Part shown: positions 186-26,308 of the stretch, piece after piece
Layout: every line of letters begins with the position of its first letter
Numbering within the stretch: the stretch's first letter is position 1
NCBI GenBank assembly: GCA_024404095.1
Contig: JAKSQO010000010.1
Location: 1 to 64,000 of the forward strand
Length of the DNA stretch: 64,000 nucleotides
Direction of reading: 5' to 3'
From: Clostridia bacterium
Lineage (GTDB): Bacteria > Bacillota > Clostridia > Oscillospirales > Acutalibacteraceae
Notes under the pieces: model-generated
Told to the model about the DNA's origin: nothing
The model's database searches: none
Seen by the model: the letters and a program-made list of their open reading frames with translations, nothing else
Translations under genes and position numbers: made by a program

Positions 186-266
<81 letters not shown>

Positions 267-9877: not shown

Positions 9878-10472
9878 CCGAATACGATATGCCTGTTATG
9901 GTAAAACTCGAAAGCAGACAGATTACGACGGACAGACGGGTTACACCATGCACATTCTTGACGATATTATTGATAAAATAGTTCGTGATATTTTCAGCAA
10001 AATGAAAGGTGTTTCAAAAAACGACTTGGTTATGGCAAGATACGAAGATGAGCTTGAACAAAGAAAAGTCCGACTGCTTGCATTGAAATCCGAATATACA
10101 AAAGAAGCTGATAATCTGAACCTTTTAAAATCTGAGGTTATTAAGTGTATTCGTGGTGAAAGTAAATTTTCACAGGAAATGCTTTCGGGATTGATTACGG
10201 AATCAGAAGCAGAATGTAACAGACTTTTGAGTTTGTGTGGAGTTGCTGAAAAAGAAATTGCTGACAGCGAGAGTGTTCTGAAAGATTTATCCGCAACCTT
10301 TGACGAACTTGTTTCGTGGGCAGAGCTTTATGAAAAGGCAGAATTTGCACAGAAGAAAATGATTGTGAACTGCTTGATTAGACGGGTTGATGTGTGCCGT
10401 GATTACAAGTTGAAGATTGATTTTAACTTTGATTTTCAGCAGTTCATCAACGGGATAGATTCAGCAGCTTAA
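9878..10472 (+). pseudogene. 3' fragment of a large serine recombinase gene
   Basis: From 9878 the DNA is closely similar to the end of the intact recombinase gene at 24423-26018 (homology starts at 25424). It keeps the last part of the zinc-ribbon region, the coiled-coil C-terminal segment and the common ending (…QQFINGID). It lacks the catalytic resolvase domain and cannot recombine DNA. The internal ATG at 9948 could give a 174-residue peptide but no ribosome site favours it. It is the relic integrase of island unit II, cut by the IS-like sequence just upstream. Confidence 0.85.
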
Positions 10473-10481: not shown

Positions 10482-10523
10482 AACGCAAAACCGAGATGAT
10501 TTTCGTCATCTCGGTTTTGCGTT
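10482..10523. terminator. Bidirectional terminator between recombinase remnant and tRNA fragment
   Basis: Long near-perfect inverted repeat AACGCAAAACCGAGATGA / TCATCTCGGTTTTGCGTT with a short loop. The same hairpin, with small changes, follows the intact recombinase at 26028-26069. It separates the plus-strand recombinase end from the minus-strand tRNA fragment. Confidence 0.8.
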
Positions 10524-10526: not shown

Positions 10527-10607
<81 letters not shown>

Positions 10608-10872: not shown

Positions 10873-11132
10873 AATGACAAAATTCTTTTTAACCGTTTTT
10901 TCTTTGTTTTATCAACAATTAATTTTATCAGAAGGAAAAGAAAAGCAAATGAAAAAACAAAGCTTAAAAAGAAAACCATCTGCTGCAGGCTATCAGCAAA
11001 AAGCAAAGAAAAAGCAACAAACATCAGTCTCAAAGAAAACTTAAATGCACTGATAAATCTTTTACCGCTGTTTGTTTTTTTATTCTTTACTAAGCCGATT
11101 ATCAAAAATACAACTGAAAAAACAAACAGCAA
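10869..11132 (-). CDS. Small membrane protein, possibly 5'-truncated
   Basis: At least 87 residues with two or three membrane helices (about 2-18, 33-48, 50-70) and a basic tail (KTKKKRLKR). The TTG start has no clear ribosome site. The open frame continues upstream to about 11215 with more hydrophobic codons (LTGLILFLITIG…) but no ATG, so the native N-terminus may have been lost or a rare start may be used. It is coupled to the lipoprotein gene by overlap. Function unknown. Nothing else is visible in 11216-11341. Confidence 0.45.
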   Translation of the reverse strand: MLFVFSVVFLIIGLVKNKKTNSGKRFISAFKFSLRLMFVAFSLLFADSLQQMVFFLSFVFSFAFLFLLIKLIVDKTKKKRLKRILSF

Positions 11133-11341
11133 AAAGCATATTATAATCGCAATTGATTTTTCATCTCCTATTGTGATTAAAAACAGAATCAGTCCTGTCA
11201 GAAAAAAATCAATGTCAAGGCTTTAAATTTAACTGGATTCCCCTTCCTTTTTACCATACATATAATAAAACAAATGAATGATAAAAATAAAAAAACAATA
11301 GAGAATAATAAAAGCGTAGGGAGCACCTCGTATCTGTATAG

Positions 11342-13252
11342 TTATTTAAACCACTTGGTTATTACATTGATAATTTTTGAAATTGCCTTTAATGCTGCAG
11401 TTACTATGGTTTCAAAAAAATATGCAACCTTTTCAAAAAAAATTTTCTCTCCGGTTTCTTCATCAGCTTCGACAATAAGCTTAAAAGCATCGTAATTTCC
11501 GCTTTCAAGCAGAGAAAGCATTTTTGCAAAGCTTATCTGATACTGACCGTCCTCATAAAGAACCTCCAAACTGATATATACATTATGAAGCGTCAAATCG
11601 TTTCCGTTAAATTCGGCATCTATTTCCTCGTTTTCAATAATGATTTGTTCCCTAATAACATTATGGAAATCAAGCTCTGTAAAATAAATGTATTCGCTGT
11701 CTTGATTTATCAAAAGATATTTTTTAAAGAAAAAATATGACAGATTTTTGTTAACATCTATCGTACCGTTAAAACTCAGTATTTTTTTATCTTCGTCGAA
11801 TGAAACAGTCAACGATTTAATACTGTTTTGTTCTGCAAATAAAGCAGGCTCTGTGTTTCCGTCTTCATATATAAACATCAGAGCAGAATTCGCACCCGAA
11901 AATGAGTTGTCCCCGATTTGCGTGTTTCCCATAAAAGAAACGTTTGAAAGCTGAGGGCAATCAGAAAACGCATTTTTACCGATTGACTGAAGTCCGTTTC
12001 CTAAGTGAACCTCCTTCAGATTATTCAGTCCGCTGAAAATATCATACGGGAACGACACAATCCCATCATCTGTTTCGATGTATTCAATGCTGTCATTATA
12101 TTCTTCCCAGCCATATTCGTCGCTGTCGCTAACGGAACCGGTCCCGGAAATCCTGAGTGCTCCGTCGCTGTATGACCAAACTGCATTTTCGCCGCATTCA
12201 TCATATTCTGTAAAAGCAGATTTCAAATTAAATGCGGGAACAACGCCACAGTAATCGGTTTCGTTTGCTGAGATATAATTTCCTCCATAGCCTTCACAAT
12301 GTACATTGCAGACACGATAAGAATCTATCGGTGTTCTGAGTACCCAGTTTGAGGAATATCCCGTTTCCGAACAGCTTAAGCCCTGACACGCAGCATAATC
12401 TGTAAATCGCATTATTCTTGCCGAATCGGTAGTTTTATACGGTGATTTAAATCCGTAGTCTGTATTGGAAATATCCGATACTGATAGAAGAAAAATTTTA
12501 TCAGTAACTGAAGGACAACCGTACTCATCATTATCTCTGCTCGGCGTTTCAACTGGCGATTTCTTTATCATAAAGCGTTCTTCGCTGTTGAATGCCGTAT
12601 AAAGAAAATCGTTGTTAAGCCATTCTCTGATTTCGCTTGTTGAGTAATCAGAAGCGTAGTTGGTGCAATCAGGATCGCTGTAATAATTACTTTCTCCTTC
12701 AGGGCGGTAAACATAGCCGTTAAAATCTCGGCAGTCAATAGCATTATTACAGCAAACAAAACCGTTTTCCGGATCAAGAATACGCCATTCTATCGGCTCA
12801 TATTTAAAATAATATACATTATTCGGGAAATACCCGTTGTCCTCCTGATCGCTGAAATGGCCTTCGTAACGCATTGTATCAAACGGACGGTATAAATCAA
12901 ATATAACCGCTCTGTACATTTCTCCGTTATATTCTATATCAGCATAGCGCATATAATCAGATTTGTACATCGTTCCGTCGGCAGAACCGCTTTGAATGAA
13001 ACCGGAATGAGTTCCGAGATAATAATCATACGAAATCCATGTTTTATCTTCTTTGTCAAGCTCAGAGATTAAATCTTTATCCTTAACCTCAGACTGAGGA
13101 TATGAACCAAACTCTATAATATCGCCGACATTCATCGAACTGATGTCAACTGCTTTTGATTCCACCATGAAATCAATTGATGGAACAACGCCTGTCAACA
13201 GCGCAGCAGCCATAATAAATGACATTGCTTTTTTATAAAACTTTTTAAGCAT
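11342..13252 (-). CDS. Secreted DUF6273 protein with a leucine-rich repeat
   Basis: Exported protein of 636 residues. A signal peptide (KKFYKKAMSFIMAAALLTGVVPS) is followed by a DUF6273-type domain at about 45-350, with FGSYPQSE, YEPIEWRIL, STSEIREWLNNDFLYTAF, LLS and GVVPAFNL as landmarks. A short BspA-type leucine-rich segment follows (about 390-455, IFSGLNNLKEVHLGNGLQSIGKNAFSDC), then a non-repetitive region and an amphipathic C-terminal helix ending KIINVITKWFK. The ATG at 13252 has AGGAGG at ideal spacing and overlaps the end of the histidine kinase gene by 8 bases. Probably cell-surface and controlled together with the two-component genes. Ligand unknown. Confidence 0.75.
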   Translation of the reverse strand: MLKKFYKKAMSFIMAAALLTGVVPSIDFMVESKAVDISSMNVGDIIEFGSYPQSEVKDKDLISELDKEDKTWISYDYYLGTHSGFIQSGSADGTMYKSDYMRYADIEYNGEMYRAVIFDLYRPFDTMRYEGHFSDQEDNGYFPNNVYYFKYEPIEWRILDPENGFVCCNNAIDCRDFNGYVYRPEGESNYYSDPDCTNYASDYSTSEIREWLNNDFLYTAFNSEERFMIKKSPVETPSRDNDEYGCPSVTDKIFLLSVSDISNTDYGFKSPYKTTDSARIMRFTDYAACQGLSCSETGYSSNWVLRTPIDSYRVCNVHCEGYGGNYISANETDYCGVVPAFNLKSAFTEYDECGENAVWSYSDGALRISGTGSVSDSDEYGWEEYNDSIEYIETDDGIVSFPYDIFSGLNNLKEVHLGNGLQSIGKNAFSDCPQLSNVSFMGNTQIGDNSFSGANSALMFIYEDGNTEPALFAEQNSIKSLTVSFDEDKKILSFNGTIDVNKNLSYFFFKKYLLINQDSEYIYFTELDFHNVIREQIIIENEEIDAEFNGNDLTLHNVYISLEVLYEDGQYQISFAKMLSLLESGNYDAFKLIVEADEETGEKIFFEKVAYFFETIVTAALKAISKIINVITKWFK

Positions 13253-14540
13253 AAACATCCTCCTGTTTGAAAACAAAGCCAACTTTTATTGTAAATATGC
13301 TTTCGGTGCATTCCAGCGTAACAAATCCGTTGTATTTTTTTGCAGCGGATTTAATATTTTCTATTCCGAAGCCGTGATTCTTTTTGAATTTTTTACTTGA
13401 TGCTATTCTGTTATTTTTAATATTAATTTTTTTAAGAACAGGATTGGAAAACGCAATTATCGCTCCGTCCCCGCTTTCAGACGAAGTAATGTTAATTGTA
13501 CCGGAAGACCACTCAGCACTTCCTTCAATTGCATTGTCAAGCGCATTTGACAGCACAGTACACAAATCGTTGTTAGCAATACCTGACGACGGAATTGTTC
13601 CGTCAAAATGAACATCTATCCCCTTTTCTGCGGCAACAGCAGCCTTGTGTGAAATAATAGCGTCAGCAAGATAGTTTCCTGTTGCAAATATTATTTCTGT
13701 ACTCTGAATAGAATTGTTCATCTGCTCAATAAATTTTTTCGCCTCGTCAATTTTTCCGTTATTCAACATAGAGCTGATTGCAAACATATTATTTTTATAA
13801 TCGTGTCTGAAGCGTTTGATATCCTGATTTTTATTGAGAAGCTCTTCGTATTGCTTTAACTGTGATTCAATCTGAAATCGAGCGTTGTTCTGAGCCTGAA
13901 TAATAGAAATGTATTTCAGTATTATGAAAACAACACATATTATCACCAAAAAAGCCGACCCGATAAGAAGTATATATGAGTTCCTCTGAGTAAATTCAGA
14001 ATCCTTGGACAGCATCATTGTGTAATAGGTTGAAAGCGTTGACAGAAAAATAACAATATAAACAATTACCGGCACATTTTCGAGTATATCAATAGACGTA
14101 CCGGATTTGTTGTTTCTGCCTACGGCTAAAATAATAAACATGGCTATTGCTGTAATTAAAACAAAAATCAGATTTGATACCGTTACAGAATTTATGCCGA
14201 ATATATAAACTGCAGTCTCGTTGAAAAGGTCAAGCACTGAATTAAGTATCAGACCGAAAAGAACAAACGTAAGCCTTTTCTTTCTTTTGAATATACAGTA
14301 AGGAATCAGCGTAAAAGAAAACATGGTTGAAAAATCTGCTGTTTCGCCTGCGGTCTCCCTGTCAAAGCAAAAGTACGGAACAACCGCAACAACAAGAACA
14401 ACTGCAGAAATAACGGTTAGAGCAGCCTTTTTTATTTTCAACTCATAATCCGCCAATTTACTCAGAAAAAATACTGTTAAAAAAATTCCTGCGATATTTT
14501 TCAATACGCAGGTAATACATTCTGCCATCATCAGCATCAC
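13245..14540 (-). CDS. AgrC-like sensor histidine kinase (GHKL family)
   Basis: Membrane sensor kinase of 431 residues. About six helices fill residues 10-210, then a coiled linker and a phosphoacceptor H box with His246 in RFRHDYKNN. The GHKL ATPase part has the N box LSNALDNAIEG near 330 and the G box HGFGIENIKSAAKKYNG near 390. This is the AgrC/NatK-type layout that pairs with LytTR regulators. It lies 13 bases after the regulator gene and is translationally coupled to the DUF6273 gene. No AgrB or AgrD gene is present next to it, so the signal is unlikely to be a locally made autoinducing peptide. Confidence 0.88.
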   Translation of the reverse strand: MMLMMAECITCVLKNIAGIFLTVFFLSKLADYELKIKKAALTVISAVVLVVAVVPYFCFDRETAGETADFSTMFSFTLIPYCIFKRKKRLTFVLFGLILNSVLDLFNETAVYIFGINSVTVSNLIFVLITAIAMFIILAVGRNNKSGTSIDILENVPVIVYIVIFLSTLSTYYTMMLSKDSEFTQRNSYILLIGSAFLVIICVVFIILKYISIIQAQNNARFQIESQLKQYEELLNKNQDIKRFRHDYKNNMFAISSMLNNGKIDEAKKFIEQMNNSIQSTEIIFATGNYLADAIISHKAAVAAEKGIDVHFDGTIPSSGIANNDLCTVLSNALDNAIEGSAEWSSGTINITSSESGDGAIIAFSNPVLKKINIKNNRIASSKKFKKNHGFGIENIKSAAKKYNGFVTLECTESIFTIKVGFVFKQEDVYA

Positions 14541-14553
14541 CGCCTCAGAGACA

Positions 14554-15291
14554 TTATATATTATTGTTTTTAGTTTGTAAATACAGCTCGCATAAACCGG
14601 GGTAACATTTTTGGCTTATAAAGATTTTTTCACCGTTCTGAAGAATAACAGTCCTTGTGTCAAACTGCTTTATTTTATTTATATTAACAATATATGAACG
14701 ATGAACGCGGTAAAAGCCAAATTCTTTTAGTTCTTCATTAAATAAGGTTATGGATTTTCTGCACTTGATAACATCCGTTTCCGTATAAATAAAGGTTCTT
14801 TTACCCGAAACCTCGAGATAAAGAATTTTATCTATATCGACGGGATACATCTCTTTATTGATATTAACAAGAATTTTTCCGCTTTCGGCAGTGCTGTTAA
14901 TAAATGACTGGATAGCATCAAACATCTTTTCTTTTTCAATTGGTTTCACAAAGAAACGGTATGTACGTACCTCAAAGGACTCATAGACAAACTCAGGGTA
15001 TGCCGTGATAAAAATAATACCCTTCTTTTCTGAATTTTGTCTGATAAGCTTTGCAAAATCGAGTCCGTTCAGCTTGTTTTCGCTAACAATTTTATCGCCG
15101 TTATCCGACATATTGTAATCAAGAATAAACAAATCAAAATCGCTGATTCTGTAACGAAGCTGTTCATATCCCGAAAACGTACTGTATTTTATGTCAATAT
15201 GCTTTTTTTCGGAAAAGTCCTCAATTATCTTTGAAATATCCTTGACAACCGAGCTGTTATTGTCACAAACTGCAATGTTAATTTTTGCCAC
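14554..15291 (-). CDS. LytTR-family response regulator (AgrA-like)
   Basis: Response regulator of 245 residues. The receiver domain (1-125) has Asp8-Asn pair, phosphoacceptor Asp58 in LFILDYN and Lys in FVKP near 116. The LytTR DNA-binding domain (about 135-240) shows FYRVHRSYIVNINKI and FDTRTVILQNGEKIFIS. It starts with GTG because the only upstream in-frame alternative is closed by TAA; the AAGG site is close. First gene of a three-gene operon with the kinase and the DUF6273 gene, divergent from the two large exported-protein genes, which are plausible targets. Confidence 0.9.
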   Translation of the reverse strand: MAKINIAVCDNNSSVVKDISKIIEDFSEKKHIDIKYSTFSGYEQLRYRISDFDLFILDYNMSDNGDKIVSENKLNGLDFAKLIRQNSEKKGIIFITAYPEFVYESFEVRTYRFFVKPIEKEKMFDAIQSFINSTAESGKILVNINKEMYPVDIDKILYLEVSGKRTFIYTETDVIKCRKSITLFNEELKEFGFYRVHRSYIVNINKIKQFDTRTVILQNGEKIFISQKCYPGLCELYLQTKNNNI

Positions 15292-15314
15292 ATCCTTTTT
15301 TTATGTTACATATA

Positions 15315-15343
15315 ATTATAAACTTTAAATGCTTTATTTTCAA
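15315..15343 (-). promoter_or_regulatory. Promoter of the two-component/DUF6273 operon
   Basis: TTGAAA (15338-15343) and TATAAT (15315-15320) with 17-base spacing on the minus strand, 24 bases before the regulator gene. I could not define LytTR direct repeats or a clear plus-strand promoter in the remaining 15344-15567. Confidence 0.7.
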
Positions 15344-15567
15344 TATTAACAAACACAATTGCGGCACTTTCTACGCCGCGGAAACGGCTTTTCAGGGCGG
15401 GTTATAAAATAATCGGAAATAATGTGTTAAAATACTGATTAGCCAATAAGGTGATTTTGCCGTTGTAAAATAGAATTTGAGAATTCCAAATTATTCTTAC
15501 GGTCAGAAATTCTAAGCGGAATTAACAAATAATTTTTATAAATAATAGGAGGTTAATATTCACAAAA

Positions 15568-17598
15568 ATGAAAAAAAGAATTTTAAGTTTTTGGCTTTCT
15601 TTCGGAATGGTAATCGGCATAGTTTTAACTGGACTTAATAACATTAAAGCAGAAGCAGTAAGTCCGGGTAATATCTCAGATTTTTCTGAGCCATATAAAA
15701 ACAGCCAATACTTTACTGCGTTAAAAAATGTCGTATTAACCGGTGATCAAAGAGAAGACATTGTTAATATTGCTAGAAGTCAGATTGGTTATCAGGAAGG
15801 CTTGACATATGAAGATTTGGACGGCAGCTTAAACAACTGGAATACACATCCGCTTTCACTCAGTTATCATAACGGTTCAAAATATTCTGATTATAAAGGT
15901 TATCTTGATTCATGCGAATATAATTATTGGAGATGGAACGGAAGCAGCGGAAACAGATTTACAAGCAGCTTTGAGAGTCCAAAACCCAATGGTGCAAATT
16001 ATGACGTTTCAAGATATGACCGTGCATGGTGCGCTACATTTGTCAGCTGGTGCGCAAGACAGGCGGATATTCCGATTTCGGTACTAAATAATTCAACCTT
16101 TGCGAGTCCGTTATCAGGAAGCATGAATATTCCGTATGTTATGAAAGGAAGTTATACTCCAATCTCAGGTGATATTATTTATTTCGGTACATCATCTGTA
16201 TGGAAGCATGTCGGAATAATCGAAAGTGTTAATGGCAAAAAAATAACCTATATTGACGGAAATGGTGATGATAACGTTTCACGTCATACGATTGACATTA
16301 ACGACAGTGATATTAAGGCATTCGGAATTCCTAATTATAATGGAACGTCCGTTTTGTCTCCGATCATCTGGAATAATGTTTATGTCAGCGATATAACTGA
16401 AACATCTGCTGTTGTGAAGACTGATGTAACTGCGAACACAGGACTTCTTGATAGAATCGGTCTTGAAATGTGGAAGGACGGAGAAAATCCGGAAACCGTT
16501 GCAAGCTGGGCTGTAGACAGTATCTTAACTTACTGCTATGTTACGTGTGACGGCTCTGAAGCTCCGAGCCTGAATAAAAACACAAAATACAATTATCGCT
16601 TTTATGTTATAAAAAAAGACGGGAAATATGAATACAGCTCTGAAAATTCTTTTATAACTCCAGGCGGAGCAAAAGAACCTATTCAGTGGATTAATGTTTA
16701 TGCGGATAACATAACGGAAATATCTGCGGAGATTAAAACAGATGTTTCAGCTGATACAAGCGTTATCAGTGAAATAGGTTTGCAACTGCGTAAAGCTGAT
16801 GAGAAATCATTTGAAATTGTCGCACACTGGCCTGTAAAGACTATTCTAAATTATTGCTATGTTAAATGCGACGGAAGTGAAGCAATAAATCTGAATCCGG
16901 GAACCGAGTATTATTACCGTTTCTATATTGTAAAAACAGACGGAAAATATCTTTACAGTTCTGAGAAATCTTTTGCAACTCTGTGCAGTCATACATACAA
17001 TTCAGGTTCTGTTACTCGGAACGCAACATGTACAGAACCCGGAGAAAAAAAATATGTATGTACAAAATGCGGCGCAGTAAAAACAGAAACGATTAATACT
17101 CTCGAGCATAATTACAAATTAACAGTTACAGAACCAACCTGTACAACAACAGGAAAAAAATCATTCACATGCTCATGCGGTGATTCGTACACGGAAACCA
17201 TTCCGGCAACAGGACACAGCTATGATTTATGGACGGTTACTAAGGCTGCTACAACCTCAGCAGAAGGAACTGAGACAAGAACATGTATAATATGCGATCA
17301 TAAAGAAACACGTTCAATTCCAAAACTGAAACAGACTTTTAAAGAAGAAACCGTTGAGTTAAGATATAAAGAAACGTTTCTTTTAAACGGAATTAATTAT
17401 CCTGTAGATCTTGTATCCTCAAACACAAATGTTGCGGTTGTTGAGGGTACTAACAAGGTTAAAGTTGTAGGAACGGGTTCTGCGAATGTAACAGCAACAT
17501 ACGAAGACGGAAGTCAATACATTATTCATGTCAATGCATCAAATGCATGGTGGCAGTGGGTTATTATTATCATCCTCTTCGGTTGGATATGGTATTAA
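15568..17598 (+). CDS. Exported CHAP-domain protein with FN3-like and Cys-rich repeats and a WWQW…FGWIWY tail
   Basis: Multidomain surface protein of 676 residues. A signal peptide (1-31) is followed by a CHAP/NlpC-like amidase domain (about 60-255) with candidate nucleophile Cys155 in AWCATFVSWC and His214 in WKHVGIIE. Two FN3-like repeats of about 100 residues (260-365, 368-472) follow, then two CxxC-type repeats (about 474-590), an Ig/Big2-like domain (595-655) and a hydrophobic C-terminus NAWWQWVIIIILFGWIWY with no positive tail. CHAP domains usually cut peptidoglycan peptides. AGGAGG lies unusually far (about 15 bases) from the ATG. The next gene is a paralogue with the same architecture and tail. 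Confidence 0.8.
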   Translation: MKKRILSFWLSFGMVIGIVLTGLNNIKAEAVSPGNISDFSEPYKNSQYFTALKNVVLTGDQREDIVNIARSQIGYQEGLTYEDLDGSLNNWNTHPLSLSYHNGSKYSDYKGYLDSCEYNYWRWNGSSGNRFTSSFESPKPNGANYDVSRYDRAWCATFVSWCARQADIPISVLNNSTFASPLSGSMNIPYVMKGSYTPISGDIIYFGTSSVWKHVGIIESVNGKKITYIDGNGDDNVSRHTIDINDSDIKAFGIPNYNGTSVLSPIIWNNVYVSDITETSAVVKTDVTANTGLLDRIGLEMWKDGENPETVASWAVDSILTYCYVTCDGSEAPSLNKNTKYNYRFYVIKKDGKYEYSSENSFITPGGAKEPIQWINVYADNITEISAEIKTDVSADTSVISEIGLQLRKADEKSFEIVAHWPVKTILNYCYVKCDGSEAINLNPGTEYYYRFYIVKTDGKYLYSSEKSFATLCSHTYNSGSVTRNATCTEPGEKKYVCTKCGAVKTETINTLEHNYKLTVTEPTCTTTGKKSFTCSCGDSYTETIPATGHSYDLWTVTKAATTSAEGTETRTCIICDHKETRSIPKLKQTFKEETVELRYKETFLLNGINYPVDLVSSNTNVAVVEGTNKVKVVGTGSANVTATYEDGSQYIIHVNASNAWWQWVIIIILFGWIWY

Positions 17599-17622
17599 TT
17601 ATTTACTTTAGGAGGAATTATT

Positions 17623-20484
17623 TTGAAAAAAACAAATGGATCGTTGACTAAACTTTTATCCTTAGTTCTGACACTTGTTATGTTAATTCCGATTTTTTCA
17701 ACACTGGAATTAACGTCATATGCGGCAACTTATGATCCGAATGCGGCATTAAACTATGCTGCAGCTCATTGTAATGACACACCACAATATAGTGCAGATT
17801 GCGCAAATTTTGTTTCAAAATGCCTAACTGCGGGTGGAATAAATGTAAATAAAACGGGTACAAGAGGATTATACAATGCTGTTAAAGGGTATGGAACGGT
17901 ATACAAACTTACTTTAACAAGTGGAAAAATCAAAGCTTCTTCAAATACAGGCAAGGTGTCTCCTGGTGACCCTATCTTTTATTACTGTAATAATTGTGAA
18001 GTGTATCCTCATGTCGTTTTATGCGGAGGAACCGACAAAAACGGATACATAACGGTATATGGTCATACAAGTCCGCAAAATAATTCTCAGGCACAAACAT
18101 GGGTACATAAACATCCCACAATGACAAAAGAAGAGTATTTCAAAGCCATCGAACCCGATAAGCGTGAATATTGTTTTGAAAACAACATGAGCGTTTATTG
18201 CGTTCATATTAATACTGCAATTCCGGTAGACAATAATATAATATCATGGAACAAACTGTCTGCGAGTAATATTACATCAACATCCGCTGTTGTCAGAGCA
18301 GATGTAACGGCAAAAACAGGATATATTAAAACAATCGGTTTGCAGATGTGGAAGGATGGAGAAAGTGCTAAGTCAGTAGCGAGCTGGTCTGTAGGTAATG
18401 TTTTGACATACTGTTCAGTTGCCTGCGATGGTACAGAGGCTCCGAAACTCAGTGCCGGTACAAAATACAATTACCGATTCTATATTGTCAAAACAGACGG
18501 AAGCAATGTCTACAGCGACACAAAGTTTTTCACAACATCAGGCACAGTGGCATCAGCAATCAGATGGGATAAACTTTCCATAAGTAATATGACAGCAAAC
18601 TCAGCGGTTATCAGAGCAGATGTAACTGCAACTACAAGTTTGATTAAAACAATAGGTTTGCAGATGTGGAAGGATGGAGAAAGTGCTAAGTCAGTAGCGA
18701 GCTGGTCTGTAGGTAATGTTTTGACATACTGTTCAGTTGCCTGCGATGGTACAGAAGCTCCGAAACTCAGTGCAAGTACTAAGTATAATTACAGATTCTA
18801 TATTGTACGAACAGACGGAACATATGAATACAGTACCTCTGAAAACTTTACTACCCCAAGCAGTACAGCAAACATTATTACATGGAAAAAGGTCTATGTA
18901 GAAAACATTACAGAAACATCCGCTGAAGTCAAGACTGATGTAACTGCAACTACAAGCGTTATAAATACAATAGGTTTGCAGTTATGGAAAGAGGGCGAAA
19001 GTGTCAAATCAGTTGCGAGTTGGCCTGTTAAACAAATACTTCAATATTGTTATGTTAAATGTGACGGAAGTGAAGCTGCAAAGCTCAGTCCGGGAACAAA
19101 ATATTATTATCGTTTCTTTATAATAAAAACCGATGGAACATATATTTACAGTGAGACATCAACATTTACAACTCCTTGCTCACATACATATAATTCAGGT
19201 TTCGTTACCAAGAGTGCAACCTGTACAGAATTAGGAGTAAAAACATTTACATGCACGAAGTGCGGAGCAACAAAGACTGAATCAATCGGCGTGCTTGGAC
19301 ATAGTTATACTGCAACTGTTATAGCATCAACATGTACAGAGCAGGGATATACAATTCACCAGTGCAGCCGCTGTACAGCAGGTTATAAAGACAATTATAC
19401 CGCATTAAAAAGCCATGACTTTGATTTAGGAGAAATTCTTATAGAACCCACCTATGAAGAAGCTGGTACAAAGATTTATTGCTGTAAAAACTGCGACACA
19501 ATAAAAACAGAATCTATTCCGAAGCTTGTTCCGGGCAATTATACAGTTACATTCAACCCCAACGGCGGTAACTGCTCAACATCAAGCAAGACTGTAACAT
19601 ATAATTCAACATACAGCACACTTCCTACTCCCACACGCACAGGCTATACATTTGACGGCTGGTACACATCTGCATTGGGTGGAAGTAAGGTTACAAGCAG
19701 CACAAAATATACAACCGCAGGCAATACAACCCTTTATGCTCATTGGACAGCGAATACTTATACCGTTTCATATAATGCGAACGGCGGTTCAGGTGCACCT
19801 GCAAATCAGACAAAGCCCTACGGCACAACGCTTACGCTGAGCTCAACTAAGCCGACAAAAGCAGGCTATACATTCAAAAACTGGAATACAAAGGCGGACG
19901 GTACAGGAACAACTTATTCTGCAGGTGCTACTTACACTTCAAACGCAGCCGTAACTCTTTATGCACAGTGGACTGCAAATGCAGCTCATACGCATTCATA
20001 CACAGAAAAAATAACGAAAAATCCGACCTGTACAGAATCGGGAACAAAGACTTTCACATGCTCGTGCGGTACTTCTTATACAGAAACCGTATCTGCCACA
20101 GGACACAGCTACGGCGCATGGACTGTTACTAAAAATGCAACCGTTTCTGAAGAAGGCACTGAAGCAAGGACGTGTTTAAAGTGCTTGCATAAAGAAACAC
20201 GTTCAATTCCCAAGCGGAATCCTTTTGTTAAAGAAGAAACTATAGCTGTAAATTACAAGCAGGTTCTGACTTTTGACGGAAATCAGCCGAAGCAGCTTGT
20301 ATCATCAAACAGCAGTGTTGCTCTGGTTGAAGGAAATAACTGTATCAGAGTCGCCGGCACAGGCTCGGCAACCGCAACAGCAACATATGAAGACGGAAGT
20401 CAGTATATTATTCATATCAACGCTAAATACGCCTGGTGGCAGTGGATTATTATAATCCTTCTCTTCGGTTGGATTTGGTATTGA
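17623..20484 (+). CDS. Exported amidase-domain protein with FN3-like, Cys-rich and InlB-type repeats and the same C-terminal tail
   Basis: Protein of 953 residues starting at TTG with AGGAGG seven bases upstream. Signal peptide 1-35; putative amidase (Amidase_6-like) domain about 37-205 with Cys60 in YSADCANFVSKC and His130 in YPHVVLCGG; three FN3-like repeats (208-305, 309-405, 411-512); Cys-rich repeats (513-630); two InlB/Listeria-type repeats of about 70 residues (633-785, with TVTFNPNGG and YAHW/YAQW); another Cys-rich pair; a Big2-like domain; and the tail WWQWIIIILLFGWIWY. It probably acts on the cell wall or on surface-bound substrate. FN3 repeats 1 and 2 are almost identical in DNA. 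Confidence 0.8.
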   Translation: MKKTNGSLTKLLSLVLTLVMLIPIFSTLELTSYAATYDPNAALNYAAAHCNDTPQYSADCANFVSKCLTAGGINVNKTGTRGLYNAVKGYGTVYKLTLTSGKIKASSNTGKVSPGDPIFYYCNNCEVYPHVVLCGGTDKNGYITVYGHTSPQNNSQAQTWVHKHPTMTKEEYFKAIEPDKREYCFENNMSVYCVHINTAIPVDNNIISWNKLSASNITSTSAVVRADVTAKTGYIKTIGLQMWKDGESAKSVASWSVGNVLTYCSVACDGTEAPKLSAGTKYNYRFYIVKTDGSNVYSDTKFFTTSGTVASAIRWDKLSISNMTANSAVIRADVTATTSLIKTIGLQMWKDGESAKSVASWSVGNVLTYCSVACDGTEAPKLSASTKYNYRFYIVRTDGTYEYSTSENFTTPSSTANIITWKKVYVENITETSAEVKTDVTATTSVINTIGLQLWKEGESVKSVASWPVKQILQYCYVKCDGSEAAKLSPGTKYYYRFFIIKTDGTYIYSETSTFTTPCSHTYNSGFVTKSATCTELGVKTFTCTKCGATKTESIGVLGHSYTATVIASTCTEQGYTIHQCSRCTAGYKDNYTALKSHDFDLGEILIEPTYEEAGTKIYCCKNCDTIKTESIPKLVPGNYTVTFNPNGGNCSTSSKTVTYNSTYSTLPTPTRTGYTFDGWYTSALGGSKVTSSTKYTTAGNTTLYAHWTANTYTVSYNANGGSGAPANQTKPYGTTLTLSSTKPTKAGYTFKNWNTKADGTGTTYSAGATYTSNAAVTLYAQWTANAAHTHSYTEKITKNPTCTESGTKTFTCSCGTSYTETVSATGHSYGAWTVTKNATVSEEGTEARTCLKCLHKETRSIPKRNPFVKEETIAVNYKQVLTFDGNQPKQLVSSNSSVALVEGNNCIRVAGTGSATATATYEDGSQYIIHINAKYAWWQWIIIILLFGWIWY
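18337..18455 (+). repeat. 119-bp internal direct repeat, copy 1
   Basis: Identical to 18655-18773 apart from one base; the offset of 318 bases equals 106 codons, one FN3-like domain. Conservation at synonymous sites indicates recent duplication or gene conversion and not selection on protein alone. Confidence 0.9.
18655..18773 (+). repeat. 119-bp internal direct repeat, copy 2
   Basis: Second copy of the repeat at 18337-18455, inside the second FN3-like domain of the same gene. Confidence 0.9.
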
Positions 20485-20504
20485 TTTTATTAAAACAACA
20501 CATT

Positions 20505-20534
20505 AAAAGCAGGGTATAAACCCCTGCTTTTTTG
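20505..20534 (+). terminator. Terminator after the exported-protein pair
   Basis: AAAAGCAGGG / CCCCTGCTTTT hairpin followed by T residues, 20 bases past the stop codon at 20484. Confidence 0.85.
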
Positions 20535-20680
20535 AATTAAGAGGCTTTCTGGAACAACTGAAAAAATATTTTCATCGCCAGATATACTTTTTTAGATCGG
20601 TATTTCGTACAATTTGTAATATGAATACTGGTAGCACAATTTTTAATGTATTATGGTAATAGAATACTGCGACACATTTT

Positions 20681-20713
20681 CAGCTCTCTGATTTTTCGGA
20701 GGGCTGTTTTTTT
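20681..20713 (+). terminator. Second intrinsic terminator
   Basis: CAGCTCTC…GGAGGGCTG hairpin with a run of seven T. No gene ends just before it; 20535-20680 shows no open frame, so this may end a short untranslated RNA or insulate the mobilization module. Confidence 0.7.
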
Positions 20714-20785
20714 ATGTCCGAAAATATTTTTAAAAAATTTTTCGATTTTCAGGAACATTTTGATTTTTTCTGTCGGGGTATATAT

Positions 20786-21060
20786 GAAAGGCAAAGCCTT
20801 TCATACAACTGAATACCTTGCCGGCAGGATACACCTGTTTGCGATGACAGCAGAGCAAAAGCTCTGTGTCCGCGGAGGAAGGTACGAAAGTACCCTCGAT
20901 TGAGGAGCGGACGAGCGAACACAAAGTGGTGAATACGCAGTCGGACCATATCATAGGGTATGCGGGTGCAGGAACTATGCCGGAACGACAAGGAAAATGG
21001 ACCAAGGCGGAGGACTTGTGAACTTCCTCTCAAAAGGACGAAGCGGCGGTTTAATAAGTA
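20786..21060 (+). ncRNA. Candidate structured RNA upstream of the mobilization genes
   Basis: A 275-base gene-free stretch with several strong hairpins: 20786-20802 (7-bp stem), 20845-20870 (10-bp stem with one bulge and an AAAA loop), 20881-20894 (GGTAC-GAAA-GTACC, a GNRA tetraloop) and 20894-20905. TCCGC at 20869-20873 can pair with GCGGA at 20907-20911, closing the last two hairpins into a three-way junction. A further CATAG…CTATG pairing lies downstream. I do not recognise a named RNA class. It could be a noncoding RNA, a long regulatory leader or part of the transfer origin. Confidence 0.4.
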
Positions 21061-21092
21061 TCTGAAATTAAGAATAGCGAGGAGGTGAAGCT

Positions 21093-21527
21093 ATGTTAAC
21101 AAAGACTGAAGCAATGTTACAGATAAAATACCCAAACGGTGGTGGAAAAAGTATCCACTACCAAACGGAAGAATTATCTGTAACGCAGAAAAGTAAACAC
21201 GAAAATGCTGCAGAACGGGAATATGCCGAACAGGAAACATTAAGGTATTGGTACGAAAATAACATCGGTTATCATGTTTGGAAAAAGGAATGTGAAACCT
21301 GCGGCAAGGTGTTTTACACCATTTGCAATTACCGCAAGTATTGTCATTTATCTGATTGCAGAAGTATTGCAGAGCAGAAGCGAAACGAAGAAAGAAAACA
21401 GAAGCATTATTCAGAGCATATCTGTTCTGTCTGTTCAGCACCTTTTGCAACCAAACGAAATGACGCTCGGTTTTGCAGTAATGCCTGCAGGCAAAAGGCG
21501 TACCGAAACAACAATAAGGAGGATTGA
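21093..21527 (+). CDS. Mobile-element zinc-finger protein
   Basis: Protein of 144 residues with two Cys-rich fingers in the C-terminal half: CETCGKVFYT…C…C (about 68-90) and CSVCSAPFA…C…AC (about 112-135), spaced by a basic helix rich in Lys, Arg and Glu. The N-terminal 60 residues look flexible. ATG has GAGGAGGTGAAGCT before it. Such proteins sit at the start of mobilization modules in clostridial elements and may regulate or bind DNA; no activity is established from the sequence. First gene after the candidate structured RNA. Confidence 0.6.
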   Translation: MLTKTEAMLQIKYPNGGGKSIHYQTEELSVTQKSKHENAAEREYAEQETLRYWYENNIGYHVWKKECETCGKVFYTICNYRKYCHLSDCRSIAEQKRNEERKQKHYSEHICSVCSAPFATKRNDARFCSNACRQKAYRNNNKED

Positions 21528-21542
21528 TATTTATGAAAATGT

Positions 21543-21616
21543 AAGGTATGTCTCATACCTTAGCGAGCAGGGACTTTGTGTGCCAAGTCCCGCTCCACTC
21601 AGGGGAAGTTTCCCCT
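21543..21616 (+). other. Candidate origin of transfer (oriT)
   Basis: Three inverted repeats in 75 bases directly upstream of mobC: AAGGTATG/CATACCTT (21543-21561), GGGACTT/AAGTCCC (21570-21591) and AGGGGAA/TTCCCCT (21601-21616). This position and density of dyads are typical for the site nicked by a relaxase. The nick position cannot be assigned by eye. Confidence 0.45.
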
Positions 21617-21643
21617 TAAACCCCTCAATAAATTTGAAAGGAT

Positions 21644-21985
21644 ATGATTATTGCAAACAAAAATGTCAGAATCGTTTCACGGGTAAGTGAAACGGAAAAG
21701 AAAAAGATTGAAAGCCTTGCAGATAAATGCGGACTTTCAATCAGCGAATATGTAAGGAAAAGAGCATTGGGATATGAGCCGAAAACGGTTCTTCCCGATG
21801 TCTTTTTTGATTTCTATGAAAAGCTGTGCGAGCTCATCAACTCTTTGAATGACAATGAACTGAAAGAAAAAGCTCTCAATCTGTTTGATGAAATTCACAA
21901 TGAGTTTTTCAAGGAAAAGAAACAAAGCGTTACGCAAATTCGGGAGGAGATTCAAAAATGGCAACCACCGGATTTTGGCCCGTAA
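21644..21985 (+). CDS. mobC: MobC-like relaxosome accessory protein
   Basis: Protein of 113 residues with a ribbon-helix-helix-like N-terminus: NVRIVSRVSETEKKKIESLADKCGLSISEYVRKRALG, the usual opening of MobC family proteins. These bind oriT and assist the relaxase in strand opening. The gene overlaps the relaxase start by 28 bases, so both are probably made together. The ATG is close to its AAAGGAT site. Confidence 0.8.
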   Translation: MIIANKNVRIVSRVSETEKKKIESLADKCGLSISEYVRKRALGYEPKTVLPDVFFDFYEKLCELINSLNDNELKEKALNLFDEIHNEFFKEKKQSVTQIREEIQKWQPPDFGP

Positions 21986-23307
21986 AGAGCAATCTTAAAT
22001 ATACCCTTGATTATGCTGAAAACCCCGATAAAACAACTGCCGAAAAATGTCTCGATAATGATCTGTATGCTGCAATCCGTTATGTTGAGAATGATGACAA
22101 AACCGACAGAAAGCTGTTTGTTACAGGCATTAACTGCGTAACCGAAAGAGCATACGAATGTATGATGTCAACAAAAAAGAGATACGGAAAGCTCGGTGGC
22201 AATTTAGCCTATCACGGTTTTCAGAGCTTTGCCGAGGGCGAGGTTACCCCCGAAGAATGTCATCGGATAGGAATTGAAACCGCAAAACTAATGTGGGGAG
22301 ATAAATACGAAGTTATTGTTACAACTCACTTAAATACACAGAATCATCTTCACAATCATTTTGTGGTGAACAGCGTATCTTTCAGAACAGGCGAAAAGTT
22401 CAAAAACAAAATCGGTGATCATCTTGAACTGAGAAAAATATCTGACGAAATCTGCCGTGAGCATGAAAAGTCTGTTCTTGAAAATGCTTCATTCTTCGGC
22501 GGAGAAAAAAGTGCCTATTGGGTACACAGGGACGGAGGCAAAACACACAGAGATATTTTAACGGAAGACATTGAACGATGTCTTGAATCGGCAAAGGATT
22601 ACGCCGGATTTTTCAGAGGATTGAAAAGGCTTGGATACGAGGTCGACCAGACGAGATATTCTGTTAAGGTACCAAACTGGGAACGGGCAATAAGGCTTAA
22701 TAGCATTGGATATACAAATGAAAATCTAAAAAAGAGGTTTGAAGGAAATATGTACAATCTCAATTCGTACAAGCTGTATATTCCCGTACCCAAACAGCAG
22801 CCGTTAAGAAAAATGCTCCGTGAGTATGAATATGAGATAAAGCATTCAAACGATGCGTCAACCGTACTTGTTGACTTGGTATTCTATCTCATTATCAGTC
22901 TGCTTGAAGCGGCACATGAAAGGCGCGAACTTCAGGCACAGGCTGCGGAAATATGCATGGAATACGCTCATATTAACGAGCTGAAAAGAGAGTATCAGTT
23001 TTTGACAGACAACAATATACACACGGTTATCGAACTGGAAAAAGCAATAGAAAATGCAAAATCTCAGTTTTCAGAACTTGAAGAGCAGCGTAAAAAGGAA
23101 TACAACCGCATCAGAAGACCAAAGAGTACAGAAGATAAAGAACTACACAAGCAGAAACGCAGCGAGCTTTCAGCACAGATGAAGCCGCTGCGTGATTTTA
23201 TTAAAACCGCAGAAAAGATAAATGAACGGTACAAAGCATTAAAACCCATGCTGGACATGGAGAAAAGAATGGAACGAGCTTCAATAGAAAGAAGCCGTGA
23301 CAGATAA
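21958..23307 (+). CDS. mobA: MobP-type relaxase
   Basis: Relaxase of 449 residues that would nick oriT and lead the DNA strand into a recipient through a conjugation machine supplied by another element. Metal-binding histidines are visible in TTHLNTQNHLHNHFVVNS: His124, His130, His132 and His134, followed by Asn138. The catalytic Tyr is expected in the first 50 residues (candidates Tyr15, Tyr19 or Tyr42). The C-terminal half from about 310 is a long coiled coil rich in Glu, Lys and Arg. No type IV secretion or coupling protein genes are in the unit, so it is mobilizable and not self-transmissible. Confidence 0.9.
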   Translation: MATTGFWPVKSNLKYTLDYAENPDKTTAEKCLDNDLYAAIRYVENDDKTDRKLFVTGINCVTERAYECMMSTKKRYGKLGGNLAYHGFQSFAEGEVTPEECHRIGIETAKLMWGDKYEVIVTTHLNTQNHLHNHFVVNSVSFRTGEKFKNKIGDHLELRKISDEICREHEKSVLENASFFGGEKSAYWVHRDGGKTHRDILTEDIERCLESAKDYAGFFRGLKRLGYEVDQTRYSVKVPNWERAIRLNSIGYTNENLKKRFEGNMYNLNSYKLYIPVPKQQPLRKMLREYEYEIKHSNDASTVLVDLVFYLIISLLEAAHERRELQAQAAEICMEYAHINELKREYQFLTDNNIHTVIELEKAIENAKSQFSELEEQRKKEYNRIRRPKSTEDKELHKQKRSELSAQMKPLRDFIKTAEKINERYKALKPMLDMEKRMERASIERSRDR

Positions 23308-23324
23308 TATAGGAGGAATTATTT

Positions 23325-24182
23325 ATGAAAAATATTACAGAAATTTCAATCAACAAACTTCACACCTTTGAGGGACATCCTTACAAAGTGCTTGACAATG
23401 AGGAAATGCGTGAGCTTACCGAAAGCGTAAGAGAGTACGGCATTCTCTCACCGATAACGGTCAGACCGTTAGAAAGTACAGTGGATGAATACGAAGTAAT
23501 TTCGGGACACCGAAGATTACACGCAGCAATGAAGGCAGGACTGGAAACAGTACCTGCCTTTGTTTATGACATCGACCGAGATACTGCGGCAGTAATGGTT
23601 GTGGACAGCAACCTGCACCGTGAACACATTCTGCCGAGTGAAAAAGCAAAGGCGTATAAGTTAAAAATGGATGCTCTGTCTCATCAGGGTAAACGTTCAG
23701 ATTTAACTTCGGAGCAAATTGCACCGAAGTTGACAACTGAAATTATAGCGGAACAGTATGGTACAAGTAAAGATACCGTTAAACGGTATATACGTTTAAC
23801 CTATCTGATACCTGAATTACTCGATTTAATGGATGAAGACAAAATTGCTTTCTCCGTTGGCGTGGAATTATCCTACCTTGACGAAGAAAAACAGTATGTT
23901 CTTCTCGGCTTGATTGAAGAACTTGACTGCACACCGTCATACGCTCAAGCAAATCGTATGCACAAGGATTTTCTTTCCGGCACATTATCAGATGACAGCA
24001 TTGCAGAAATGCTGTCTGCGGACAAGCCGAATCAAAGACCTGTGTATAAGGTTTCGGCTGAAAGGCTGTCACAGTTTATCAAGCCCGATACCCCACCGAA
24101 GCAGGCAGAGGAATTTATCATTAAGGCTTGTGACCACTACGCAAAGTTTCTCAAGCGTCAGCGCAACAGAGATGCGAGGTGA
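23325..24182 (+). CDS. ParB/Spo0J-like nuclease-domain protein
   Basis: Protein of 285 residues. The ParB N-terminal domain (about 5-95) is plain: EMRELTESVREYGILSPITVRPL, YEVISGHRRLHAAMKAG and VVDSNLHREHILPSEKA. A KorB-like helix-turn-helix region (about 115-190) follows. No parA gene is adjacent, as is usual for such proteins in clostridial mobilizable elements, where they may act in element copy control or regulation and not in chromosome segregation. Strong AGGAGG start, 17 bases after the relaxase. Confidence 0.88.
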   Translation: MKNITEISINKLHTFEGHPYKVLDNEEMRELTESVREYGILSPITVRPLESTVDEYEVISGHRRLHAAMKAGLETVPAFVYDIDRDTAAVMVVDSNLHREHILPSEKAKAYKLKMDALSHQGKRSDLTSEQIAPKLTTEIIAEQYGTSKDTVKRYIRLTYLIPELLDLMDEDKIAFSVGVELSYLDEEKQYVLLGLIEELDCTPSYAQANRMHKDFLSGTLSDDSIAEMLSADKPNQRPVYKVSAERLSQFIKPDTPPKQAEEFIIKACDHYAKFLKRQRNRDAR

Positions 24183-24186
24183 TTGA

Positions 24187-24423
24187 ATGAAATTACGCTC
24201 TATATTTTATGTTTTAAGAGAGAATTTCCGTTTTATCCTTAATGATACAAGCGGAACCTTTGTCTTTAATGTTGACGGTCATGAGATAACAGCGACATTT
24301 GCCGAAGAACGAAACGATGAGTTACTCCCCCGCCTGCGTGAAATTCTTTTAGGTTATCCGCACATTCGACATGATACACCTTCTGACAGTAAAATAGAGA
24401 AAAATATCAAGGAGGCGGTCTGA
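24187..24423 (+). CDS. Small conserved-type element protein, unknown function
   Basis: Protein of 78 residues, mixed alpha/beta in appearance (LRSIFYVLRENFRFILN; FVFNVDGHEITATFAEE), no motif I can name. GAGGTGATTGA precedes the ATG, and its TGA overlaps the recombinase ATG as TGATG, so it is translated with parB-like and recombinase genes. Position between them suggests an accessory role in the element. Confidence 0.7.
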   Translation: MKLRSIFYVLRENFRFILNDTSGTFVFNVDGHEITATFAEERNDELLPRLREILLGYPHIRHDTPSDSKIEKNIKEAV

Positions 24424-26018
24424 TGGCAAAACGAGTATGCTGTCTTTACAGAGTTTCAACCGACAAGCAGGTTGATTACGACAGTAACCACGAGGCAGAT
24501 ATACCCATGCAGCGAAAAGCCTGCCGCAAATTTGCCGAGCAGATGGGTTGGGAGATTGTTCATGAAGAACAGGAAGACGGCGTTTCAGGGCACAAGGTCA
24601 GAGCAGAAAACCGAGATAAAATACAAATCATAAAAGAGCTTGCAAGGAAAAAGCAGTTTGATATTTTGCTCGTGTTCATGTTTGACCGTATCGGCAGAAT
24701 CGCAGATGAAACACCGTTTGTTGTTGAGTGGTTTGTAAAAAACAATATTGAAGTGTGGAGCACCCAGGAGGGAGAACAGCGTTTTGATAACCATATTGAT
24801 AAACTCCTGAACTATATTCGATTTTGGCAGGCAGACGGTGAAAGTGAGAAAACCTCAATCCGTACAAAAACAAGCCTCGGTCAAATGGTCGAGGAAGGAC
24901 ATTTCAAGGGCGGCACTGCCGCCTTTGGATATGATCTCGTAAGAAGCGGGCGTTTAAACAAGAAAAAACATGAGCTGTATGATTTGAAAATCAATGAAGC
25001 AGAAGCCGATATTGTCAGAATGATTTTTGACAAATATACAACTGAAGGCTGTGGAGCACAGAGAATTACAACATGGCTTAATGAACAAGGGTACAGAGCC
25101 AGAACAGGTAAAATGTGGCATCCGGCAACAATTCGTGGCATACTGCATAATCTGACCTATACGGGTGTATTGCGAAGTGGTGAATCCCGTTCAGAGATAA
25201 TACCCGAATTGCAAATTATTCCTGTTGAACAGTTTGAAAGAACACAGGAAATTTTGAAAGCACGCTCAGAAAAAACACTTTCCGAATGTAAAGTACCGCT
25301 TAACACGAGAGGTCAGTCATTGCTTGCCGGAATTGCTTATTGCGGGCATTGCGGTTCAAAGCTAACACTTACAACAAGCGGTCGATACAGAAAGCGTACT
25401 GACGGAACGATAAAAGAAAGTACCCGAATACGATATGCCTGTTATGGTAAAACTCGAAAGCAGACAGATTGCGACGGACAGACGGGTTACACCATGCACA
25501 TTCTTGACGATATTATTGATAAAATAGTTCGTGATATTTTCAGCAAAATGAAAGGTGTTTCCAAAAACGATTTGGTGATGATAAGATATACAGATGAGCT
25601 TGAGCAGAGAAAAATGAGACTGACTGCATTGAAATCCAAATATGCCAAAGAAGCCGATAATCTGAACATTCTGAAATCTGAGGTGATTAAGTGTATTCGT
25701 GGTGAAAGCAAATTTTCGCAGGAAATGCTATCAAGCTTGATTACGGAATCAGAAGTAAAATGCAGCAGACTTCTGAATATGTGTGAAGATGCAGAAAAGG
25801 AAGTATCTGACAGTGAAAATGTTCTGAAAGATTTATCCGCAACCTTTGATGAGCTTGTTTCGTGGGCTGAACTCTACGACGACGCAGAATTTGCACAAAA
25901 GAAAATGATTGTGAACTGCCTTATTCGGAGAGTTGATGTTTACCGTGATTACAAGTTGAAGATTAATTTCAACTTTGATTTTCAGCAGTTCATCAACGGG
26001 ATAGATTCAGTAGTTTAA
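24423..26018 (+). CDS. Large serine recombinase (integrase of unit I)
   Basis: Site-specific integrase/excisionase of 531 residues. The resolvase domain (1-150) has catalytic Ser12 in YRVSTDKQ and DRIGRIADE; the recombinase domain (about 170-290) includes FGYDL and the loop of the DNA-binding helix with GILHNLTYTG; a zinc-ribbon follows (YCGHCGSKLTL…CYGKTRKQTDC, 310-355); the C-terminus is a coiled coil (about 365-500), as in TndX/TnpX-like enzymes. Start overlaps the preceding gene by one base with AAGGAGG upstream. It lies next to the attachment junction at 26209-26257, as expected. No separate directionality factor is obvious. Confidence 0.93.
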   Translation: MAKRVCCLYRVSTDKQVDYDSNHEADIPMQRKACRKFAEQMGWEIVHEEQEDGVSGHKVRAENRDKIQIIKELARKKQFDILLVFMFDRIGRIADETPFVVEWFVKNNIEVWSTQEGEQRFDNHIDKLLNYIRFWQADGESEKTSIRTKTSLGQMVEEGHFKGGTAAFGYDLVRSGRLNKKKHELYDLKINEAEADIVRMIFDKYTTEGCGAQRITTWLNEQGYRARTGKMWHPATIRGILHNLTYTGVLRSGESRSEIIPELQIIPVEQFERTQEILKARSEKTLSECKVPLNTRGQSLLAGIAYCGHCGSKLTLTTSGRYRKRTDGTIKESTRIRYACYGKTRKQTDCDGQTGYTMHILDDIIDKIVRDIFSKMKGVSKNDLVMIRYTDELEQRKMRLTALKSKYAKEADNLNILKSEVIKCIRGESKFSQEMLSSLITESEVKCSRLLNMCEDAEKEVSDSENVLKDLSATFDELVSWAELYDDAEFAQKKMIVNCLIRRVDVYRDYKLKINFNFDFQQFINGIDSVV

Positions 26019-26027
26019 AAAATTGAA

Positions 26028-26069
26028 AACGCAAAACCGAGATGACTTTCATCATCTCGGTTTTGCGTT
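26028..26069. terminator. Bidirectional terminator between recombinase and tRNA-Ala
   Basis: Inverted repeat AACGCAAAACCGAGATGA / TCATCTCGGTTTTGCGTT. On the minus strand it is followed by a T-rich run and so ends the tRNA transcript; it also faces the recombinase stop. Same hairpin as 10482-10523. Confidence 0.8.
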
Positions 26070-26072
26070 ATA

Positions 26073-26148
26073 TGGTGGAGCATGTCGGGATCGAACCGAT
26101 GACCTCTACACTGCCAGTGTAGCGCTCTCCCAGCTGAGCTAATGCCCC
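26073..26148 (-). tRNA. tRNA-Ala(GGC), complete, element-borne
   Basis: Full 76-base tRNA including encoded CCA. Acceptor strands GGGGCAT / ATGCTCC, D arm with AGCTCAGCTGGGAGAGC, anticodon arm CTACA-CTGGCAG-TGTAG (anticodon GGC) and T loop TTCGATC. It differs from the split host gene in the acceptor, anticodon and T stems. It lies inside the element end, 60 bases from the attachment arm, and has no convincing promoter of its own; the native tRNA promoter at 26280-26308 reads into it. Confidence 0.95.
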
Positions 26149-26208
26149 GTATTCCTTATTCTTTTTTATTTTTTGCCCGCTTTTCATTCGACTTTTTTCT
26201 CAATTATC

Positions 26209-26240
26209 GGGGGGTGCGTTTCCGGGTGTTTCGCTCTCCC
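26209..26240 (-). other. Attachment junction of unit I (attL)
   Basis: Core GGGAGAGCG (26232-26240) followed on the minus strand by AAACACCCGGAAACGCACCCC (26209-26231). The outer 14 bases are the exact inverted repeat of the arm at 10594-10607. The 60 bases between this arm and the intact tRNA are AT-rich and show no gene. Confidence 0.75.
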
Positions 26241-26257
26241 AGCTGAGCTACACCCCC
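26232..26257 (-). pseudogene. 5' fragment of the host tRNA-Ala(GGC)
   Basis: First 26 bases of a tRNA (acceptor strand GGGGGTG, TAGCTCAGCT, GGGAGAGCG), cut in the D arm. Joined to either 3' fragment (186-244 or 10527-10585) it gives a full 76-base tRNA-Ala(GGC) with a paired acceptor stem. It still sits behind its promoter. Confidence 0.85.
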
Positions 26258-26279
26258 ATATTTAGTTTTCAACGGAACT

Positions 26280-26308
26280 ATAATATCATATAATTCCGTT
26301 GAAATCAA
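26280..26308 (-). promoter_or_regulatory. Promoter of the split tRNA-Ala, inside an 11-bp inverted repeat
   Basis: TTGATT (26303-26308) and TATTAT (26280-26285), spacing 17, about 22 bases before the tRNA 5' fragment. The element-borne intact tRNA lies 130 bases downstream with no terminator between. The same DNA forms a perfect inverted repeat TTTCAACGGAA/TTCCGTTGAAA (26267-26304) that may end the upstream gene's transcript. Confidence 0.6.

Follow-up and report, generated by a model that had tools for sequence, protein, structure and literature searches.

We analyzed positions 1-64,000 of contig JAKSQO010000010.1 (assembly GCA_024404095.1; Clostridia bacterium, Acutalibacteraceae); the whole of this 64,000-nucleotide stretch is referred to as the window. 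The window holds two elements in tandem, an intact one that spans about 10,582-26,236 and an older one at lower coordinates. The features of both elements, in order from the promoter side of the intact element, are as follows:

26280..26308, minus strand: captured host promoter on the attL side (-35 box TTGATT at 26303-26308, 17 nt, extended -10 box TATTAT at 26280-26285)
26232..26257, minus strand: orphaned 5' part (26 nt) of the split tRNA-Ala, which pairs with the displaced 3' part
26211..26240: attL of the intact element, with core CGCTCTCCC (26232-26240) and inner arm GGGGTGCGTTTCCG (26211-26224)
26149..26231, minus strand: 83-nt spacer from the broken half to the complete tRNA, starting with an attachment arm; promoter score at chance level
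26073..26148, minus strand: complete element-borne tRNA-Ala(GGC), called by ARAGORN and by Rfam (56.8 bits), with G3:U70 and an encoded CCA
26028..26069, minus strand: intrinsic terminator of 19 pairs, 3' of the element tRNA, found in a scan of the window
24423..26018, plus strand: large serine recombinase (LSR), 531 aa, with Resolvase, Recombinase and Zn_ribbon_recom domains
23325..24182, plus strand: ParB-like protein (domain match)
21958..23307, plus strand: relaxase with a MobA/VirD2-like nuclease domain
21644..21985, plus strand: NikA-like mobilization protein (domain match)
10577..10607: attR of the intact element, with core GGGAGAGCG (10577-10585) and inner arm CGGAAACGCACCCC (10594-10607)
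10527..10585, minus strand: displaced 3' part (59 nt) of the tRNA-Ala(GGC) cut by the intact element, anticodon GGC
10482..10523, minus strand: terminator of the tRNA assigned to the older element, 90% identical to 26028-26069
9878..10472, plus strand: 3' remnant of the LSR gene of the older element, recognized by sequence identity to the intact LSR gene
236..266: attR of the older element (core at 236-244 and inner arm)
186..244, minus strand: displaced 3' part (59 nt) assigned to the ancestral host tRNA-Ala(GGC), anticodon GGC, with a different, host-type terminator (about 149-184)

At attL, 26 nt of the cut tRNA gene run on into unrelated sequence, and the -10 box of the host-side promoter is preceded by TG. 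A preliminary description of this DNA had proposed that a serine-recombinase element cut a host tRNA-Ala(GGC) gene in the D arm, leaving the promoter and 26 bases in place, and that a full tRNA-Ala(GGC) with different stems lies 83 bases past the cut in the same orientation, with a terminator behind it. Each of these points agrees with the listed features and with the structure of the two parts. When the 26-nt 5' part and the 59-nt 3' part were joined in a script, they gave a full tRNA-Ala(GGC), in which all acceptor, D and anticodon pairs are formed and the AlaRS identity pair G3:U70 is present; the single mismatch, at the end of the T stem, is found in the element's own tRNA as well. This shows a genuine split of the gene. 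Compared with the split tRNA, the carried one has different acceptor and anticodon stems and the same anticodon and G3:U70, and the LSR gene is convergent with it. The inner arm of attL has an inverted copy at 10594-10607, each located 12 nt from the A21/G22 center; two arms that are inverted repeats equidistant from the core center show the symmetry that a serine-integrase attP should have. The intact element has a direct repeat of only 9 bp (10577-10585 and 26232-26240), and the crossover is likely to have occurred between A21 and G22 of the tRNA, i.e., in the D arm, within GGGAGAGCG.

The missing remainder of the tRNA-Ala gene is present twice (10585..10527 and 244..186). The first copy is preceded by an element-type terminator and by a truncated LSR gene that is 88% identical, over 708 nt, to the LSR gene of the intact element; thus, the tRNA cut at this place was probably the older element's own. 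In the simplest reading of the tandem, the older element inserted into the ancestral host gene and came with a tRNA of its own, and it was this tRNA that the present element cut later. The tandem shows two 3' parts and one 5' part, and so this history needs a deletion; the lost 5' part would have been removed by deletion between short direct repeats, as seen at other loci. We found no true empty site that corresponds to the locus in the window; the search through its UbiA neighbor returned only distant homologues, with no tRNA nearby.

The cargo of the intact element (11342-20484) includes a DUF6273/LRR_5 protein, a GHKL histidine kinase with a LytTR regulator, as well as two large, repeat-rich proteins in which CHAP and amidase domains and internal repeats of 318 nt are found. 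The cargo of the older element (472-9628) is of polysaccharide type (GT2, two epimerase/dehydratases, a TPP enzyme, GtrII, a DegT aminotransferase and a nucleotidyltransferase). A fluoride riboswitch (41301-41370, minus strand, 46.1 bits) lies outside both elements.

The ParB-like, relaxase and NikA-like genes located before the LSR make the element look like an integrative mobilizable element (IME). It has two features of serine-integrase IMEs, an LSR with Resolvase and Recombinase domains, and a relaxase together with an accessory mobilization protein. Scans of larger ORFs of the element gave no match to conjugation machinery.

Using LSR alignment in a scan of GTDB genomes, we collected relatives of the element and studied the best 80 loci (62-78% identity). 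A complete tRNA-Ala (GGC or CGC) lies past the 3' end of the LSR in 65 of these 80 loci, with a broken 5' half behind it in nearly all of the 65, and the shared order is LSR, terminator, complete tRNA-Ala, attL, broken 5' half, host promoter. About half of the 15 loci that lack this unit stop at a contig edge just after the LSR. Three of the 15 (L052, L086 and L108) have a displaced 3' part beside the LSR, which means either that the carried tRNA was itself cut by another element or that this LSR lies at the other end, and at the remaining loci, L104, L118 and L123 among them, no complete tRNA-Ala was found nearby. It should be noted that ARAGORN called a complete tRNA at L086; we rejected this call as an attR chimera and left it out of the count of complete tRNAs. 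The element ends, at loci where both were read, are up to about 40 kb apart. The hosts are gut Clostridia, e.g., Faecalibacterium, Angelakisella, Neglectibacter, Negativibacillus, Yanshouia and many MAGs, and phage and plasmid collections contained relatives only below 60% identity. At one locus (L051, 8011-8093), a tRNA-Ala 3' half close to the end of the contig faces an inverted copy of itself head-to-head, which is possibly an assembly palindrome.

Wherever displaced 3' parts were read, they have the isoacceptor of the carried tRNA: GGC carriers are accompanied by GGC 3' parts, and CGC carriers by CGC 3' parts, with the GGC genes intact in genomes that have CGC-carrying elements. In Neglectibacter timonensis, a search with the tRNA-Ala 3' half returned three UGC genes, two displaced 3' parts and, as the single GGC tRNA-Ala gene, that of the element. 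In Negativibacillus, the D-stem strand of the 5' part is GCGC and the matching GCGC is in the 3' part, at a distance of 24.5 kb; the D stem of the carried tRNA is GCTC/GAGC instead. The broken halves match each other in Lachnoclostridium as well.

We regard it as very probable that the window element is one member of a large LSR family that uses a tRNA gene as attB and replaces this gene instead of repairing it. In the proposed mechanism, the LSR would recombine attP with the D arm of tRNA-Ala, presumably acting at A21/G22, and integration would part the promoter and the first ~22-26 nt from the remaining gene, which would be left at the opposite end of the element. A complete promoterless tRNA of the same isoacceptor and orientation, with a terminator of its own, sits just inside the promoter-side end, where the host promoter would transcribe the broken half, the spacer and the complete tRNA, and RNase P would presumably cut the mature 5' end of the carried tRNA. 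The carried tRNA would also regenerate attB, so that it could be the target of later elements, which would stack up. If the repeated 5' halves recombined with each other, attL could be deleted and the element tRNA fused to the host promoter for good, and exact excision would restore the host tRNA gene.

A sister LSR subfamily, of about 42-46% identity, cuts tRNA-Asn. In one genome (G255), two broken tRNA-Asn halves lie behind a TTGACA...TATAAT promoter, and a complete tRNA-Asn comes after them; one base of its T loop is unusual, and CCA is not encoded. A displaced 3' part adjoins an LSR on another contig. This is the only complete tRNA-Asn among the 44 tRNA matches of a genome that is 96% complete. 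No other tRNA is known to read Asn codons, and so the G255 copy must work, unless the assembly misses another one. Displaced 3' parts were also seen beside more distant LSRs, apparently of tRNA-Lys(CTT) at L029 and apparently of tRNA-Asn at L028; these parts suggest that the target range is wider than Ala.

Stacks of two to three or more broken 5' halves are present at several loci and are likely to record serial insertion. At L064, upstream of 15332 on the minus strand, at least three tandem broken 5' halves stand before one complete tRNA-Ala. An orthologous promoter next to SulP could be compared in four genomes of one genus: it is followed by one broken half in L275 and by two or more in L276, and the complete tRNA-Ala lies directly on the promoter in L274 and L277. 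L274 and L054 are the same site; at L054, an LSR and the displaced 3' part with attR are found on one contig. Fused scars of this type, in which attL is gone and the complete tRNA is on the host promoter, were found at L054/L274, L277, L113, L119 and L287. The last of these, on contig C14 of F. longum, was a candidate empty site that we rejected on account of an LSR remnant; the element was once there, and the site is a fused scar. We found no element-free relative that carries both the split and the intact tRNA, an arrangement that the preliminary description had named as evidence against its reading.

That description had also taken the broken gene to be of an essential type and the replacement to be a form of addiction, the host being held hostage through its dependence on the element's tRNA. 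The breakage and the replacement stand; "essential" and "addiction" are the weak parts of the claim. Dependence is suggested by the gene counts that had been proposed as a check: of the 40 tRNA matches in its assembly, no other than the window tRNA is a tRNA-Ala(GGC), and the one further tRNA-Ala is CGC; the G255 copy is the only complete tRNA-Asn found, "only copy" being provisional in both cases, because most of the genomes are draft MAGs. All of the 40 matches were typed except for one weak 64-nt match in the window's genome without an ARAGORN call (L050, G000:C9:44363-44426, 31.2 bits). However, exact excision would rebuild the host gene, and so clean loss would go unpunished, with only a sloppy deletion of the tRNA end being punished. 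A host that has tRNA-Ala(UGC) may tolerate losing the GGC isoacceptor, and CGC, which some members carry, should be more dispensable still; CGC and perhaps GGC isoacceptors would not be essential in the presence of a UGC tRNA. In fused scars, moreover, the host keeps the tRNA of an element that is no longer excisable. Addiction is, in our view, improbable. The selective reason would be avoidance of harm to the host, with a possible ratchet once attL is lost, and this is a better description of the strategy.

The stacks of two, three or more broken halves, together with carried tRNAs that were cut beside LSRs, the window itself being such a tandem, might also mean that the main use of the carried tRNA is that of a fresh attB for further elements and not that of a working tRNA. 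We consider this to be very unlikely, given the structure of the carried tRNAs. Among sixteen distinct carried tRNAs, 98.8% of cells form standard pairs, G3:U70 is invariant, and both-side changes (covariation) are found in 13 of 21 pairs; in a shuffle control, 0 to 4 of 500 cases reach the same pairing values. For a mere attB, with its ~50 bp, neither compensatory changes in all four stems nor an invariant G3:U70, CCA and a terminator would be needed; the anticodon match is unneeded for an attB as well, and fusions keep the tRNA after attL has been lost.

Promoters were compared at 61 loci, using the best sigma-70-like score versus that of shuffled sequence. Upstream of the outermost broken half, the mean score is 10.4, compared to 5.6 for shuffled sequence, 39 of the 61 loci are above the shuffled 95% level, and TTGACA-17-TATAAT is seen at many loci; the window's own promoter is moderate (9.1, with the shuffled 95% level at 9.0). 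For the spacers, the mean score is 4.66 versus 4.49 for shuffled sequence, and four of 61 are above the 95% level. A scan of the window spacer (26149-26231) found no minus-strand promoter, in line with the earlier expectation that the intact tRNA has no strong independent promoter. The absence of promoters beyond chance in the spacers suggests that the carried tRNA depends on the captured host promoter. A promoter of the carried tRNA's own in the spacer, with none captured, could account for the few high-scoring spacers and for L106, an exception in which a longer spacer (~170 nt, in the region of about 3818-4080) contains TTGACA-17-TATAAT; however, this view has only a slight chance of being correct, given that the spacers score as shuffled sequence does and the host-side regions do not. 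The L106 member may have gained its own spacer promoter.

The LSR of L087-L092 is 100% identical across six species, which belong to several genera; the carried tRNA is the same, and several of the host 5' halves differ; this implies transfer, though not by which route. The same cross-species element refutes the idea that the complete tRNA is a second host tRNA-Ala gene beside the integration site, i.e., part of a tRNA cluster in which the element disrupted one copy, an idea that fits the several GGC genes of some genomes and to which we assign next to no probability, because the tRNA travels with the LSR in 65 of 80 loci, lies inside the att boundaries and is CGC in the CGC-targeting members. 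The central claim of the preliminary description, that the element replaces the broken gene with its own tRNA behind the captured promoter, has thus gained support from the recurrence, the isoacceptor match, the promoter statistics, the scars and the tRNA-Asn case.

Tyrosine-integrase islands and prophages in tRNA and tmRNA genes rebuild the same gene through the att core (Islander, PMC4383910; PMC12884075; Int-Y mycobacteriophages, PMC9262239). The elements described here resemble them in that attB is located in a tRNA gene and the function of this gene would survive integration. The distinction is that the recombinase is an LSR, not a tyrosine integrase, and that it cuts the D arm; the common core of the islands is about 25-35 bp or more, compared to 9 bp in the window, and instead of a core that rebuilds the gene at one end, a separate complete and non-identical gene behind the captured promoter would supply the function. 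Serine IMEs such as Tn4451/TndX and the streptococcal IMEs (reviewed in PMC5704250) and IME_Rho_tet (PMC12904643) share with the window element the LSR, the relaxase, the accessory mobilization protein, the very short direct repeat, the inverted att arms and the occurrence in gut Clostridia. However, the targets that the serine IMEs of the review disrupt are maff2-type ORFs or genes said to be dispensable, such as rumA (PMC5704250), and these IMEs bring no replacement copy of the target. The ssrA islands of Dehalococcoides (dsiA/dsiB) insert at the 3' end of ssrA, where a 20-bp repeat preserves the gene (PMC3146451); both systems have serine recombinases, an essential RNA gene as the target, islands in tandem and a module that includes a tRNA-like locus, whereas the tRNA-Gly-like locus of these islands is not a copy of the target. 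Mycobacteriophages with serine integrases (Bxb1 and others), which have the same recombinase class and a short core, are stated to avoid tRNA genes, and Bxb1 inactivates groEL1 without a replacement (PMC9262239). We found no description of a full tRNA replacement behind a captured promoter in the open-access literature; priority is thus unproven.

Taken together, we think it likely that a widespread LSR lineage evolved a gene swap, in which an indispensable RNA gene is broken, its promoter is captured, and an imported tRNA of the same isoacceptor is driven from it, with at least two tRNA identities (Ala and Asn) involved. Deletion between the repeated 5' halves would make the swap irreversible, so that horizontally acquired tRNAs would permanently replace host tRNA genes. 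A whole LSR clade would thus do the opposite of those serine integrases that avoid tRNA genes or use dispensable genes, by carrying a spare tRNA, and this would be a second solution to insertion into an indispensable gene, besides rebuilding it by identity. The family yields natural pairs of LSR and attB at conserved tRNA sequence, and the stacks of broken halves may be read as a log of past insertions. The swap would account for the tandem tRNA-Ala fragments in gut Clostridia, and through it mobile elements would be able to put their own tRNA genes in place of those of the host.
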